DNA of 64,000 nucleotides. It comes from Bacteroidota bacterium (lineage in GTDB: Bacteria > Bacteroidota > Bacteroidia > CAILMK01 > JACPUW01). Positions 29,307-38,391 of the stretch are shown here, piece by piece. Position 1 is the first letter of the stretch. Every line of letters begins with the position of its first letter. The position numbers and the translations under genes were made by a program. Below the pieces are notes generated by a model, which searched no databases, was not told where the DNA came from, and was given only the letters and a program-made list of their open reading frames with translations. The stretch is from NCBI GenBank assembly GCA_016192035.1, contig JACPUW010000043.1, forward strand, positions 1 through 64,000. The letters are read 5' to 3'.

Positions 29307-29756
29307 ATGCCCAAAGAAATTACCATAGCATCAAATAGAAAAGCATCCTTTGAATACGAACTCGTAGAGCGGTTAGTGGCGGGTATGTCGCTGTTGGGCA
29401 CAGAGGTAAAATCCCTGCGTTCGGGCAACGTGAGTTTTGCCGACGCCTACTGCACCATAGACCACCGGGGTTTGTTGCTGCGAAACCTAAACATACCCAT
29501 ATATAAGGAGGGCACTATATACAACCATGAACCCCTTCGTGTACGGTCCTTGTTGGTTACTAAATTGGAATTGAAAAAGTTGGAACGAAAGGTCAAAGAG
29601 AAGGGACTGACCATAGTGCCCACCCGGTTGTTCTTTGGCGAAAGGGGATTTGCCAAGATAGAAATTGCCCTGGCACGTGGAAAAAAATCATTTGATAAGC
29701 GGGAAACGATCAAACAGAAGGATTTACAAAAACAGATTAACAGAAACGAATACTGA
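29307..29756 (+). CDS. smpB: SsrA-binding protein
   Basis: 149 aa tmRNA partner that delivers tmRNA to stalled ribosomes for trans-translation. Family blocks are ASFEYELVERLVAGMSLLGTEVKSLRSGNVSFADAY, NHEPLRVRSLLVTKLELKKL, GLTIVPTRLFFGERGFAKIEIALARGKKSFDKRETIKQKDLQKQI. The C-terminal tail that enters the decoding centre is present but short. ATG at 29307; the TGA overlaps the ATG of the WG-repeat gene by one base (TGATG). Confidence 0.97.
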   Translation: MPKEITIASNRKASFEYELVERLVAGMSLLGTEVKSLRSGNVSFADAYCTIDHRGLLLRNLNIPIYKEGTIYNHEPLRVRSLLVTKLELKKLERKVKEKGLTIVPTRLFFGERGFAKIEIALARGKKSFDKRETIKQKDLQKQINRNEY

Positions 29757-30961
29757 TGCGGGGATACCTGTCCATTTGGGCATTTATGCTCACCCTATCG
29801 GCTGGTGCCTGGGCACAATCCGGACTTATACCCTACAAGGAAGCGGGCAAGTACGGATACAAGGATTTGACAGGCAAGATGGTAGTGCCTGCGCGGTTTG
29901 ACCGCACATTTCCACACAAGGACGGAATGGGCAGGTTTAGCCACCAAGGCAAGTTTGGATACCTTGATGTGGCCGGTAAACTGGTTATAGCCAACGTGTT
30001 TACCGAAGCATATGATTTTCAGGAAGGCATGGCCCGCACCAAGGATGGCCCTGTATGGGGTTTTATTGACAAAAGGGGCAAAACGCTGTTTACTGTTGCG
30101 GGCGAACAGGTTTCTGACTTTGTGAACGGTATGGCCGTGTTCTCGCGCAACGGGTTCTTTGGCTATATCAATCAGAAAGGGGAGGAGGTGTTTCCACCCA
30201 TCCTTACCCAAGCCGATCAATTTATAAACGGTGTGGGCCGAATAGCCGTGGGCCAGTACTATGGCTTGATCAACGCGCAGGGTACCATGATACTGGAACC
30301 CAAGTACGATTACGTGGGCATACCTCAAGATACCGTGATAAGGGTGAAATCGGGTGGGTACTGGTATATATATAACCTGAAGGGACAGAAGCGTGTACAG
30401 GCCAAGGAATCCCTATCGGCTGAATTTTCGGAGGGTCTATGTGTGGTGCGCGTGCTAGACCCCTCCATGATTATCTGGCGCAACTACATGGATTACAAGG
30501 GGGATGTGGTGATTGATGAAAATTTTATATGGGCAGGAAATTTTTCGGGTGGCCTGGCAGTGGTCAAAGCGGAGTACAATGGCCTAGAGCGATATGGGGT
30601 GATCAACAAGGAAGGGCGATACCTGGTCAACCCGACTTATACCAAAACCCTGGGCCTTTATTCCGAAGGCTTGCTGGGTGTAGAAAAAGGGGGCAAATGG
30701 GGCTACATAGATTCCCGTGGCATAGAAGTGATTGGGTTTGGATTTACCCAAGTGGATCCGTTTAAAAATGGGTACGCCATGGCCAGCAAGGGCGAACACA
30801 GATGGGGCTTGATCAATAAACAAGGGGAAACCATCATTCCCTTCAAGTACGATTTGGTGATAGAGGGTGCCTATTTCTTCTTTGCCTCGCTGGGCCACTA
30901 TCATTCCTTTTATTCTAAATCGGGTACCCTGATATGGGAAGAGCAACCCGAAACCGAATGA
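29756..30961 (+). CDS. WG-repeat secreted protein
   Basis: 401 aa. Signal peptide MRGYLSIWAFMLTLSAGAWAQ. About nine WG repeats of ~40-45 residues follow, each with the pattern G-x-x-G-a-h-x-x-x-G-x-x-h-x-P-x-a/h-D/Y (GKYGYKDLTGKMVVPARFD, GKFGYLDVAGKLVIANVF, GKWGYIDSRGIEVIGFGF, HRWGLINKQGETIIPFKYD). WG repeats are thought to bind other proteins or form a beta solenoid; no enzymatic role is known. Start codon shared with the smpB stop (TGATG), stop 4 bp before the helicase TTG start. Confidence 0.88.
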   Translation: MRGYLSIWAFMLTLSAGAWAQSGLIPYKEAGKYGYKDLTGKMVVPARFDRTFPHKDGMGRFSHQGKFGYLDVAGKLVIANVFTEAYDFQEGMARTKDGPVWGFIDKRGKTLFTVAGEQVSDFVNGMAVFSRNGFFGYINQKGEEVFPPILTQADQFINGVGRIAVGQYYGLINAQGTMILEPKYDYVGIPQDTVIRVKSGGYWYIYNLKGQKRVQAKESLSAEFSEGLCVVRVLDPSMIIWRNYMDYKGDVVIDENFIWAGNFSGGLAVVKAEYNGLERYGVINKEGRYLVNPTYTKTLGLYSEGLLGVEKGGKWGYIDSRGIEVIGFGFTQVDPFKNGYAMASKGEHRWGLINKQGETIIPFKYDLVIEGAYFFFASLGHYHSFYSKSGTLIWEEQPETE

Positions 30962-30965
30962 ACCC

Positions 30966-33900
30966 TTGACCCTACCAAAGCATAGCACGGTATCCGAATA
31001 CTGTTCCACTTACAACTGGCTGCAAAGGGATGTGCGCCAGCTTTTTCCATCGGTTTTAGATTGGTTTCGTTGGTTGCGCCTACAGCATTTGTCCGGCCAG
31101 GTGGCCATTATGCACCAGGCAATGGGCATAAGGGGCCATCAGGCAATTCACTTGACCGCCGGGCTATTAAAACCACAAGTCAATTTTGACAAAATCCAGG
31201 CCCTGGCTTGGGATGAAGGCTTATTCAGCAAAGAACAACGCCCTAACCATCCGGTGGCCCGTTACTGGAACCAGCTTACCGGCAGGCCGAGCCTGGTATA
31301 TGATGAAGTATTTTGGGCCCCTGAGGTAAAATGGCGCCACCACGACCAGCGTTCAGATGTATGGTCGGCAGGCATGGTACTGGCTGCCCTGTTTTCTGAT
31401 TTTGACCCCACCGATGCGCGCATATACAAGGCGCTTTGCCAGGGCCAAGTAGATGTTTGTGCTTGGCGTTTGCCAAATTTGGCCCCGGTTGTAGCTACAT
31501 GCCTGTCAATTGATCCGGATAAAAGGATTCACCTTCATGAGCTGATTGTACTGCTGTCACAGGAGGCAGCAAACGCCAGTGAATTAGTGGGTTTGCCCTC
31601 ATCCCTATATGAAGGGCATATCCATGGGCTCAAGCTTGCCGTGCTTGATTTTACCAATCGCAACCCGCTGTTTCACTTTGGTTTGACCAATGGTTTTGTG
31701 GCCTTGCAAATGGAATTGGCCGACTTTTTGGCCACAGGAAAGAAATGGGTATTCGAGCAATCAAATGACCCTTTGCTCTCTGCGCTTAACCAAGTGAGGC
31801 TAAAGCGCATGCAGGCACTGCGTGACAAAGGGGAAGATAACCTTTGGTGCGTAAGCCATTGGTTATATTGGCAGTATGAAGGGCAGACAAAAAAAACGCC
31901 CTTGCTTATGGTGCAGGTCAATCTGGATCTGGTCAAGTCACTGGCCCTAGAGTACCAGCTGCAGCCCAGCTCCAGCAAAGTGCTTGTGAATGAAGTGCTC
32001 AGGATTTTCCTCGCCGATAGGCTACACCTTGGGCTACCGTCAAACTTGACGTTTGACGAGGCCTCGCTTACTGCCTTTTTTAACCGGTTAACCCAAGATT
32101 TGGAGGCGCTGGGTGGCGGGCCGGTGCGGGTAGAACAATACCCGCTGGTAGGCAACCTGAGCTACCGGCACTATACCATAGGCGCCAACTATACAGAGAT
32201 GCTCAGACAGGCTCCTAATTCCATATGTTTGGAATTGATGGGCTTAGAAAGCCGTGAAAGCCAACAAGCCCTACCCTTTGCCCCAACTTTTCCTTGGTCC
32301 AATATGCGGGTACTGCCGTCCGACCCATCACAAGATAAGGCGTTGGGCGCAGCGTCCACCGCTTCTTTGGTAATAGAAGGGCCGCCAGGTACAGGAAAAT
32401 CGCAAACCATTGTAAACCTTATAGCACAGGCCTTGGCGGCAGGTGAACGCGTGCTTTTTGTGTCAGAAAAACGTGCGGCCCTGGAGGTAGTGTACCGCCG
32501 CTTGGAGCAGGCAGGCTTGGATCCCTTGGCCCTGCTGGTGCACGACACCCTTCGCGACCGAAAGTCCATTATTGATTCCATAAGGACGAGTTACTCCAAG
32601 CTCATGTGCCCCTTGGAGCGCGATGCCAAACTAGGCGCACAACTGGCGGCTTGGCGCTTAGAAGAAGCAGTAAACGAATTAGATACCTATTGGACAGCGG
32701 TGCGTGACCGCACACATGGTTTTTCACTCAACGAGCTCTTTCTCCATAGGCCCAAAGGACTGTGCGTGACCCCCGAGCATCTGGTGCCCGGCTATGATAG
32801 TTGGCTGAAAAACATCCATTTGCTGAATAAAATTCGGGATGGTTTGTTGCACCTTGAAGGACATGAAATATGGAACCACTCTCCGCTCTCCCGGCTCCAC
32901 CCATGGGCCATAGCCACCAGCAATGATCCTATTGGCTATTGGGCCAATTCCAAAAAGGCGTTGCAAGAATTATGGCCTGCGTTAGAAGGGCTTATTCGGC
33001 AGACCGGGCTACCGGCCACCATGACCATAGGCCAAGTAATGCAATTGGCTTCACTGGCCCGGAGCTGCGCCAAGTTGTTGCAGCGCAATCTGTTTCGCTT
33101 GCTCATGGACGACACCCAGGCCAGGCGCGATTATGATTCATTGAAGGCGCGGTACCTCACCAAGAAGACCATGCTCCATAAAATAGGAGGGGCGCTGGGG
33201 CCCATGGGCAACCTGGATATCGGACAAATAGCATCCATCTGGGCCATGGCTAAACTGGAGCCAAATTCACCTGAAGTACAGGTATTTATAGAAACAAGCC
33301 TGAACTTGAAAGGCGGGGATTTTGGGGATCGGGGAAAAGACCTGTTGGAACTTGCCATGAGGCATGCAAAGGCCTCCTGGCAAATGCATGAACTAGAAGG
33401 GCTTTTTATGGCCCGGTATGGAAGCCAGGACCCAATGGCCTTTATCCAGGAAATGGATTTGTTGCAGGACTTGGTGCAACGCACCCAACTCCATATGCCC
33501 CAAGTTTTTGGCTATCTACATACCCTGCGGAAACCCGATGAGGTGTTGCGGGCTTTTTTGGAATGTCAAGGGGAGCTCTCCAGGGTAGAAACGGCCATAA
33601 ACATACTTGACCACCGTTTTAGGAACCTCACGCCCACAGCCGGACTGGGGTATATCCATTCCATGGATACCGTGTTTTTTGGTGATTCGGAAGTAGCCAT
33701 ACTCTTGTGGTATAATTCCCTAAGTCCCGATGTAAAATTCTGTCTGTCTGAAGCAGAAACTTCCATTGCCCAGCTAGGGCTTGATGCCCAGATAAAGGAA
33801 CTGTCCAGGGCTTATGTGGCGCGCCCCAATCTGGAGCAGTATCACTCTCCCAAGATAAACCAATGCCTAAACGCCATAGATGCAGGCTACGAGGACTTAC

Positions 33901-35414
33901 TATCGTGGAACAGCGCCAAGCTACTGGATGCCCAAGCAGCCTATTTTCAGCAAAAAGTAGCCGCTGCACAAACCCCTGCCGAGCGGCTGGGCAAAGAAGC
34001 CAAAATAGGCCGTACACAGTTCAAAAAGGGCTTGCGTTTACTCCATCGTGAAATGGATAAACAACGAAAATTTAAATCATTAAGAAGCATACTGTTAGAT
34101 GGTCAGAATACGGCACTCATGGCGCTGAAGCCTGTTTTTATGCTGTCGCCGGTGGCCGTGGCCGAAATATTCCCATGCGTGGCCCAACTCTTTGACCTGG
34201 TAGTTTTTGATGAAGCCGGTCAGCTTAGGTTGGAAGAAGTCCTTCCCATCTGCCACCGCGCCAAGCGCGTGGTGGTGGTGGGCGATAGCCAGCAATTGCC
34301 GCCAAGTACTTTTTTTAGGAATAAAATTGACCAAGAGATTGATGGCAACGTATTGAAATTTAATTCATTGTTCTCAGCGGCAAAGACGGCTTTCCCTACG
34401 CATTCCCTTTGCTGGCACTACCGCTCATCACACCAAGACCTCATTGCGTTTAACAATGTGGCGTTTTACCAGGGCCAACTCTCGGCGTTTCCTTCCTTTG
34501 GTGGCCTTCAAGCCCCCTTGGTTTTTCAAAACGTGCCCCATGGCCTGTATCACCATCGGCAGAATCATGTAGAAGCCCAAGCACTGGTAGAGTCGCTGGC
34601 CAGAGAAATGAACTTGAGGCCTACCCTCAGCTACGCCGTGATAGCATTCTCAGAGGCGCAACAAGAGGCAGTGGAACTGGCTTTGGAAAGGCACAAACTG
34701 CATGACCTAACTTTTGCCCGGATATTGGATCGGGAGGAAACACGGTATGATTCAGGGGTGTTTTCGGGATTGTTGATTAAAAACCTGGAAAACATGCAGG
34801 GGGAGGAGCGCGATGTGGTAATGGTCACAGTGGGTTATGGTCCTGATGAGTCTGGAAAGCTGGCCCAGCACTTTGGCCCTATCATGCATGAAGGGGGCGA
34901 CAGGCGCATCAATGTGCTCAGTTCCAGGGCTAGGCTGCAGATACAGGTGTTCTGTTCATTTGACCCTGACCGGCTACAACCAAAAGAAAATGGTGGGGTT
35001 TGGGTTTTACAGCAGTGGCTCAGGTATGTGCGCGCTCACAGTGGAGGTAAGCGGGGTGAGGCCGAAGCCATATTGCGCGTGGTGCATGGAGGTGCTGGCC
35101 CAGGGGTATCAGGGGATACTTTGGTTGAAAATGTTAAAAAACAAGGGATTGAAGAATGGATATTGTCCCATGGCCATGAAAATGGTACTCAATTGCGCCC
35201 GCTGTTTACTGGATCTGGCGAGAGAGAAGCCTATTTTTATTCTGTATGGCAGCAGGGGAAGGAAACAGGGCAACTGATTGAAACAGAGCCAACCTGGATA
35301 AATACTTGGAAAGAATTTTTTGTGTCCAGGAGGGTAATGGCCCGCAGGGGATACCAGGTGCAAAAGCTTAGTACACAGTTTATCCAAAAGGAATTTAGGT
35401 CTTTGACTACATAG
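30966..35414 (+). CDS. SF1 helicase with N-terminal kinase-like C-lobe
   Basis: 1482 aa. The core is a UPF1-like superfamily-1 ATPase: Walker A GPPGTGKSQT at residue 472, then VLFVSEKRAALEVVYRRL, the DEAG box (FDEAGQLRLEE, residue ~1082), GDSQQLPPS, the NLENMQGEERDVV motif and INVLSSRARLQ. It resembles the large DUF4011-type helicases often found in defence and DNA-metabolism settings. The first ~200 residues look like the C-terminal lobe of a protein kinase. They show a degenerate catalytic loop (GLLKP, residues 66-70), APE (118-120), RSDVWSAG (129-136) and the closing Arg in DPDKR (187). The N-lobe, HRD and DFG residues are absent, so it cannot be an active kinase. No C-terminal nuclease was recognised. 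Start is TTG, 4 bp after the WG gene. Confidence 0.85.
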   Translation: MTLPKHSTVSEYCSTYNWLQRDVRQLFPSVLDWFRWLRLQHLSGQVAIMHQAMGIRGHQAIHLTAGLLKPQVNFDKIQALAWDEGLFSKEQRPNHPVARYWNQLTGRPSLVYDEVFWAPEVKWRHHDQRSDVWSAGMVLAALFSDFDPTDARIYKALCQGQVDVCAWRLPNLAPVVATCLSIDPDKRIHLHELIVLLSQEAANASELVGLPSSLYEGHIHGLKLAVLDFTNRNPLFHFGLTNGFVALQMELADFLATGKKWVFEQSNDPLLSALNQVRLKRMQALRDKGEDNLWCVSHWLYWQYEGQTKKTPLLMVQVNLDLVKSLALEYQLQPSSSKVLVNEVLRIFLADRLHLGLPSNLTFDEASLTAFFNRLTQDLEALGGGPVRVEQYPLVGNLSYRHYTIGANYTEMLRQAPNSICLELMGLESRESQQALPFAPTFPWSNMRVLPSDPSQDKALGAASTASLVIEGPPGTGKSQTIVNLIAQALAAGERVLFVSEKRAALEVVYRRLEQAGLDPLALLVHDTLRDRKSIIDSIRTSYSKLMCPLERDAKLGAQLAAWRLEEAVNELDTYWTAVRDRTHGFSLNELFLHRPKGLCVTPEHLVPGYDSWLKNIHLLNKIRDGLLHLEGHEIWNHSPLSRLHPWAIATSNDPIGYWANSKKALQELWPALEGLIRQTGLPATMTIGQVMQLASLARSCAKLLQRNLFRLLMDDTQARRDYDSLKARYLTKKTMLHKIGGALGPMGNLDIGQIASIWAMAKLEPNSPEVQVFIETSLNLKGGDFGDRGKDLLELAMRHAKASWQMHELEGLFMARYGSQDPMAFIQEMDLLQDLVQRTQLHMPQVFGYLHTLRKPDEVLRAFLECQGELSRVETAINILDHRFRNLTPTAGLGYIHSMDTVFFGDSEVAILLWYNSLSPDVKFCLSEAETSIAQLGLDAQIKELSRAYVARPNLEQYHSPKINQCLNAIDAGYEDLLSWNSAKLLDAQAAYFQQKVAAAQTPAERLGKEAKIGRTQFKKGLRLLHREMDKQRKFKSLRSILLDGQNTALMALKPVFMLSPVAVAEIFPCVAQLFDLVVFDEAGQLRLEEVLPICHRAKRVVVVGDSQQLPPSTFFRNKIDQEIDGNVLKFNSLFSAAKTAFPTHSLCWHYRSSHQDLIAFNNVAFYQGQLSAFPSFGGLQAPLVFQNVPHGLYHHRQNHVEAQALVESLAREMNLRPTLSYAVIAFSEAQQEAVELALERHKLHDLTFARILDREETRYDSGVFSGLLIKNLENMQGEERDVVMVTVGYGPDESGKLAQHFGPIMHEGGDRRINVLSSRARLQIQVFCSFDPDRLQPKENGGVWVLQQWLRYVRAHSGGKRGEAEAILRVVHGGAGPGVSGDTLVENVKKQGIEEWILSHGHENGTQLRPLFTGSGEREAYFYSVWQQGKETGQLIETEPTWINTWKEFFVSRRVMARRGYQVQKLSTQFIQKEFRSLTT

Positions 35415-37545: not shown

Positions 37546-38391
37546 ATGAAGTTATTTAGCATAAACACGGGTTATTTCAAACTAGATGGTGGGGCCATGC
37601 ATGGGGTAGTTCCCAAATCGCTCTGGCAGCGGTATAATCCTGCCGACGGCAACAACCTGTGCAATTGGGCCATGCGCTGTCTCTTGATTGACACAGGGTC
37701 GCGCAGGGTACTCATAGATAACGGAATGGGGGATAAACAGGATGCCAAGTTTCTGTCGCACTACTATTTAAACGGCAATGATTCCCTCTTGGCTTCCCTG
37801 GCCAAGGTAGGTTATGGTCCGGGCGACATAACCGACAATTGGCTAACCCATTTGCACTTTGACCACTGTGGCGGAGGTATTGCATGGAACCGCGACCACA
37901 CGGGATATGAACCTTTATTTCCCAATGCTACCTACCATGTACATGCCAAACAATGGGACTGGGCCATGCACCCCAATGCGCGAGAGAAAGCCAGTTTTTT
38001 GAAAGACAACCTACTGCCCATGCAAACCAGCGGGCATATGGCATTTATGGAAGACCCTAAGACACTGGATATGGGGTTTGACATGGAACTGGTATTTGGC
38101 CATACCGAGGCCATGATGCTGCCAAAAATTACCTATGGTGGCAAAACCATGTTATATATGGCTGATTTGTGCCCTTCGGTAGCCCACCTGAGGATAGCAT
38201 GGGTTATGGGATATGATATACGCCCGCTTGAAACCATGAAAGAGCGTGCCCGGATCTTGGAGATGGCTGCCGACTTGGGCTATATCCTTTTTTTTGAGCA
38301 TGATGAAAAAGTGGAGTGCTGCTCGGTACAGCGCACCGACAGCGGAGTGGCCATTGACCAAGTATTTGCATTGGCCGAGGCGGGATTTTAA
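37546..38391 (+). CDS. MBL-fold metallo-hydrolase
   Basis: 281 aa metallo-beta-lactamase-fold hydrolase. The zinc motif is HLHFDHCGG (HxHxDH) at residue ~104; further ligands are likely in GHTEAMM and MADLCPS (Asp). FEHDE near the C-terminus supplies the last His. Overall length and the N-terminal pattern (GVVPKSLWQRYNPADGNN...CLLIDTGSRRVLIDNGMG) resemble the AHL-lactonase-like branch, but also many unspecified esterases or lactonases. Co-transcribed with lhgO (3-bp gap). The link to 2-hydroxyglutarate metabolism (e.g. lactone hydrolysis) is speculative. Confidence 0.86.
   Translation: MKLFSINTGYFKLDGGAMHGVVPKSLWQRYNPADGNNLCNWAMRCLLIDTGSRRVLIDNGMGDKQDAKFLSHYYLNGNDSLLASLAKVGYGPGDITDNWLTHLHFDHCGGGIAWNRDHTGYEPLFPNATYHVHAKQWDWAMHPNAREKASFLKDNLLPMQTSGHMAFMEDPKTLDMGFDMELVFGHTEAMMLPKITYGGKTMLYMADLCPSVAHLRIAWVMGYDIRPLETMKERARILEMAADLGYILFFEHDEKVECCSVQRTDSGVAIDQVFALAEAGF

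Follow-up and report, generated by a model that had tools for sequence, protein, structure and literature searches.

What is half of a protein kinase doing at the front of a helicase? The window analysed here is a stretch of 64,000 nucleotides (positions 1 to 64,000 of contig JACPUW010000043.1, assembly GCA_016192035.1, Bacteroidota bacterium). It carries an uninterrupted open reading frame of 1482 amino acids with a TTG start (30966..35414, + strand, as are all features of this gene given below) that encodes a superfamily 1 (SF1) helicase. Its residues 1-212 (30966..31601) are almost certainly the C-terminal lobe (C-lobe) of a protein kinase, starting at helix D/E and lacking the N-terminal lobe (N-lobe). 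The fusion is not a one-off and defines a family in several phyla, where the usual partner of the helicase is an HEXXH (M48/SprT-like) peptidase of the same operon. The explanation that we favour, with a probability of roughly 0.5, is that the C-lobe is a dock on a helicase acting as sensor or motor, probably in defence.

The N-terminal domain and its kinase relatives

The original prediction had read residues ~20-195 as following the order of a kinase C-lobe, and four lines of evidence now agree with it: sequence matches of the window protein, profile-profile comparison of its relatives, and predicted structures of one relative and of the window domain itself. The Pfam Pkinase model (PF00069) aligns with residues 99-192 over profile positions 146-256 (E=0.0012, 18.7 bits; E=1.8e-4 in a search of its own genome). 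A phmmer search with residues 1-219 against all PDB chains gave 187 matches at E<=1, the best 60 of which are all kinases, the top one reaching E 6.5e-6 over residues 127-194. A profile of the relatives, built without the window protein, was compared with a profile of seven kinases encoded in the window genome or in related ones; residues 16-224 of the relatives fell on kinase columns 90-266 of 276 with E=3.1e-8 and 95% probability. The controls, namely the profile read in reverse, 12 versions with shuffled columns and a profile of the N-lobe only, gave at most 1.5%. The AlphaFold model of the representative L085 (residues 1-234, from an alignment without the window) reached a predicted local distance difference test score (pLDDT) of 89, and Foldseek returned PknB as its best PDB match and kinases only among its best 50. 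Structure prediction of residues 1-212 of the window protein, followed by the same fold search, likewise found only protein kinases among the best 50 PDB matches. Neither of the two outcomes that the original prediction had named as refuting it was therefore seen.

Some of these results count against the kinase assignment. The Pkinase score lies below the gathering cut-off of 31.7 bits, the model of the window C-lobe is modest (pLDDT 69), and the Foldseek superpositions of the C-lobe models have a root mean square deviation of ~5-13 Å and a template modelling score of ~0.5. Because of these last two values the similarity to kinases has to be regarded as distant, and the claim made from the predicted models covers C-lobe topology, not close structure.

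The landmark motifs stand where they had been reported: APE at residues 118-120 (31317..31325), RSDVWSAG of helix F (subdomain IX) at 129-136 (31350..31373), and CLSIDPDKR, with the subdomain XI Arg187, at 179-187 (31500..31526). In 39 relatives the APE Glu is kept 38 times, and the helix-F Asp, the Gly after it and the subdomain XI Arg are invariant (39/39 each). The helix-F stretch [IL][GN]HHD[AP][LI][TS]D is one of two peptide patterns picked automatically as most conserved, and the VAPL and HHD motifs are strongly conserved across the family. An LKP had been taken for a remnant of the catalytic loop; it is present, at residues 68-70, but ~20 residues downstream of the HRD position. The family alignment places H41..V46-A47-I48-M49 of the window on the kinase H..VHRD, so that V46-A47-I48-M49 (31101..31112) marks the site of the lost loop and A47-I48-M49 the HRD position itself, which in the 39 relatives is occupied by Ala (37), Pro (25) and Leu (36). 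The catalytic Asp of HRD and DFG are absent, as had been foreseen, from the window protein and from all 46 named homologues described below. The domain has the C-lobe fold, APE Glu, helix-F Asp and subdomain XI Arg in common with Hanks-type protein kinases (PF00069), and differs from them in lacking the N-lobe, the catalytic Asp and DFG and in being fused to a helicase.

The absence of an N-lobe, with its glycine loop and VAIK lysine, also holds for the window protein and for 46/46 named homologues; a relative with a complete N-lobe, which the original prediction had thought worth looking for, does not occur among them. On average the relatives have their helix-F Asp at residue ~146, compared with ~185 in complete kinases. 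At most loci the start of the helicase gene is fixed by the stop codon of the peptidase gene, which overlaps it or lies directly against it. Four loci, L100, L119, L123 and L126, have longer N-termini that might have been N-lobes; these were rejected as the peptidase gene read in another frame, with its stop overlapping the true start. A peptidase partner providing the N-lobe in trans was rejected as well (hhalign 0.1%).

A helicase family paired with a peptidase

In the window gene, G+C by codon position over the first 212 codons resembles that of the neighbouring genes, and this region is therefore coding. The protein as a whole is an SF1 helicase (Upf1-like, DUF4011 group). Motifs I, II, III, IV, V and VI are all present, among them Walker A GPPGTGKS (residues 472-479, 32379..32402), Walker B DEAG (1082-1085, 34209..34220) and motif VI NVLSSRAR (1316-1323, 34911..34934), and Pfam AAA_11 and AAA_12 exceed their cut-offs. 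The label 'DUF4011-like' given to the ATPase in the original prediction rests on profile matches to PDC-S37 (PADLOC, 2.3e-145), ProA (NCBIfam, 1.3e-141) and Hhe (PADLOC, 4.4e-84); the Pfam DUF4011 profile itself matches the relatives and not the window protein.

With the anti-phage protein ProA (NCBIfam NF058533) the window protein has in common a DUF4011-type SF1 core with a long insert (residues 259-1357). It scores 473.7 bits against a cut-off of 1500, the match begins at profile position 445, and the definition of ProA, which includes its N-terminal domain, does not extend to the window protein. The N-terminal domain of a ProA member is itself weakly transglutaminase-like and not a kinase C-lobe (in the homologue L036, a weak Pfam match to transglutaminase-like folds at 0.0096), and coupling to a peptidase-like domain may therefore occur in two groups of DUF4011 helicases. 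Hhe (NCBIfam NF042953 / PADLOC PDLC02194) shares the SF1 core of the DUF4011 group; here the window reaches 386.5 bits against a cut-off of 2000, with its best stretch in the helicase, not in the C-lobe. PDC-S37 (PDLC05009), the best PADLOC match both of the window helicase and of the family, is a candidate profile only, and its best match in family members begins after the C-lobe.

A search for related loci with the window protein alone found nothing, and relatives were therefore reached through the ProA profile, class-wide, which brought up proteins with extended N-termini that start with this domain. Family loci come from a scan of genome contigs with an alignment of the C-lobe and DUF4011. 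We found 46 named loci in Bacteroidota, Planctomycetota, Verrucomicrobiota, Actinomycetota, Myxococcota and Pseudomonadota, and one further short contig labelled Nealsonbacteria. At class level, the domain occurs in 7/388 genomes, in a frame that is helicase-sized or cut; the window's own genome and a second one, G002, are included in the count. The family architecture consists of a C-lobe domain of ~225 amino acids, DUF4011, the SF1 helicase, REase_MTES_1575 and often WGR; Pfam does not recognise the first domain as kinase-like in the relatives that were scanned whole.

The gene adjoining the helicase encodes an HEXXH (M48/SprT-like) peptidase in 42/43 testable loci, a count that leaves out three of the 46 with too little upstream sequence. 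The exception, L117, has an open reading frame of similar size without HEXXH. The operon peptidase matches the Pfam M48 and SprT-like models and has no PADLOC match. The helicase type is known; neither a C-lobe-only pseudokinase as its N-terminal domain nor the near-constant pairing with an HEXXH peptidase turned up in the family libraries or in a partial literature search.

Catalytically disrupted kinase domains, thought to be non-enzymatic, are known from putative conflict systems, the MoxR-vWA ternary systems (PMC7159879). These share disrupted kinase domains with our family and have different ATPases; a C-lobe-only kinase fused to a DUF4011 helicase is not described in the part of that paper at hand. 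The neighbours of the peptidase-helicase pair at L085 (4046-6523, Bacteroidetes bacterium RIFCSPLOWO2_12_FULL_35_15) include a bpX4 gene of a MoxR-vWA-beta-propeller ternary system (Pfam 7.5e-73) and an apparent MoxR AAA+ gene that is encoded divergently.

Two further features of the family may be mentioned. At the C-termini of L085, L115, L090 and L122, the usual acidic motif of the REase_MTES_1575-like domain is often replaced by C-N/D-L-A-V and LGIL(V)D, and judging from these residues the restriction endonuclease (REase)-like nuclease may be inactive or altered family-wide. In genome G212, L069 and L106 are one family helicase gene in frames of 985 and 816 amino acids, either a broken copy or an assembly error.

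The window lineage

The window protein is very probably a divergent member of this family. A family profile built without it and G002 finds a single place in the window genome, which is the C-lobe domain (E=0.001), and a single place in G002 (8.9e-11), a genome from another genus of the same family as the window organism. In a helicase-core tree, from which the C-lobe was left out, the window and G002 are sister to the C-lobe family with SH-aLRT support of 95-96; for this placement only, the G002 gene, which is spread over two contigs, was joined end to end from its two pieces with a six-residue overlap. That the tree was quick and its branches are long counts against the placement.

Both genomes also have the gene order smpB, WG-repeat gene, helicase. 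In the window, smpB (29307..29756, +) overlaps the WG-repeat gene (29756..30961, +) by one base, and the TTG start of the helicase gene lies 4 nt past the WG-repeat stop; the order is repeated in G002 contig C362. A signal-like N-terminus, read by eye, makes the WG-repeat product look exported, and it was set aside as a physical partner of the helicase. WG-repeat matches are numerous in both genomes.

The window helicase has no MTES_1575 REase-like or WGR domain recognisable by Pfam or profile comparison. The region at the site of the family's REase-like domain (35118..35360) gives only a weak multiple alignment with it, is not recognisable as a nuclease, and its homology is unproven. In this branch the peptidase, WGR and any recognisable nuclease have been lost and every helicase motif has been kept, in both genera. 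Without the peptidase, the gene is either that of a helicase reduced to its essentials or a slow relic; that two genera have kept the motifs intact favours function.

A proposed docking module on a helicase

We propose that the C-lobe would neither bind ATP nor transfer phosphate and would instead serve as a docking or adaptor module, a role that we give an even chance. The ATPase would be a nucleic-acid sensor or motor, and its engagement of nucleic acid would release or position a docked effector, in most bacteria the peptidase. The peptidase-helicase module would probably serve in antiviral defence, as do ProA and Hhe, the DUF4011 proteins related to it. A role in defence or repair had been entertained in the original prediction, and like it we infer the role; defence rather than repair is about as good a bet as not, and in its favour are the patchy distribution of the family and its relationship to ProA and Hhe. 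In the window lineage only the motor and dock would remain, the helicase acting alone or with an unlinked partner.

Several results count against this proposal. No HEXXH peptidase was found in the window genome or in G002 (88% complete), and in the window genome the dock-and-release scheme therefore cannot operate as drawn. The ProA and Hhe scores of the window protein are far under the curated cut-offs, so that function cannot be transferred from them. There is no clear defence-island signal: among 94 neighbour proteins, assessed for enrichment with no control set, the commonest PADLOC families match only three, all by UvrD/GajB-like or reverse transcriptase-associated helicase models. Searches of plasmids, phages and viral contigs found no mobile-element copy of the module.

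SPRTN-type proteases work with helicases, and by analogy the module could be a DNA repair device that removes DNA-crosslinked proteins. The helicase would unwind DNA or strip protein, the SprT/M48-like peptidase digest, WGR bind DNA, and the C-lobe couple helicase and peptidase. The match of the HEXXH peptidase to SprT-like and M48 models, the WGR domain in part of the family and the lack of both a clear defence neighbourhood and mobile-element copies in the collections searched all fit such a device. We nevertheless think it unlikely, if a serious alternative, as a core repair function would not usually be so patchy (7/388 genomes of the class) and the helicases nearest to this one have been named as anti-phage proteins.

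In the lineage of the window, the gene may instead be a slowly decaying relic of the family, its peptidase, nuclease and WGR gone and its C-lobe eroding. The missing peptidase, the unrecognisable C-terminus and the long branches are what such decay would leave, and the G002 homologue is without the APE motif; yet 1482 codons run without a stop and with coding-like codon positions, and all helicase motifs and the gene order are kept in two genera, which makes decay improbable. It is more doubtful still that the C-lobe retains an unusual enzymatic or nucleotide-binding activity, as some pseudokinases do: the strongly conserved VAPL and HHD could form a new site, but HRD and DFG are lost and no homologue has the N-lobe, which would form the other half of the ATP cleft. 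A chance resemblance to kinases is hardly credible, for although the Pfam score is below cut-off and the relatives by themselves get no further than E=0.22 in a comparison with PDB sequences, it is contradicted by the PDB match of the window domain, the profile-profile result with its negative controls, and the kinase-only best 50 structure matches of both models.

The docking proposal leads to a broader and more tentative one: that N-lobe-less C-lobes may serve bacteria as adaptors. Here the C-lobe would couple a sensor, the DUF4011 SF1 helicase, to an effector, the HEXXH peptidase, in a new two-gene defence (or repair) system of several phyla, of which the window would carry a peptidase-free derivative. 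It is unusual for the kinase fold to be used as a C-lobe with no N-lobe. Some of the pseudokinases of bacteria lack annotation, and the window member provides the bridge through which this domain becomes visible. The family adds to the DUF4011 helicases, a group in which some members have been named as anti-phage proteins, and the C-lobe helicase with its operonic peptidase is a testable two-gene helicase-protease module.

Elsewhere in the window, positions 37546-38391 encode a metallo-beta-lactamase-fold protein that is nearest to YtnP-type quorum-quenching lactonases (NCBIfam 2.9e-49, under cut-off).

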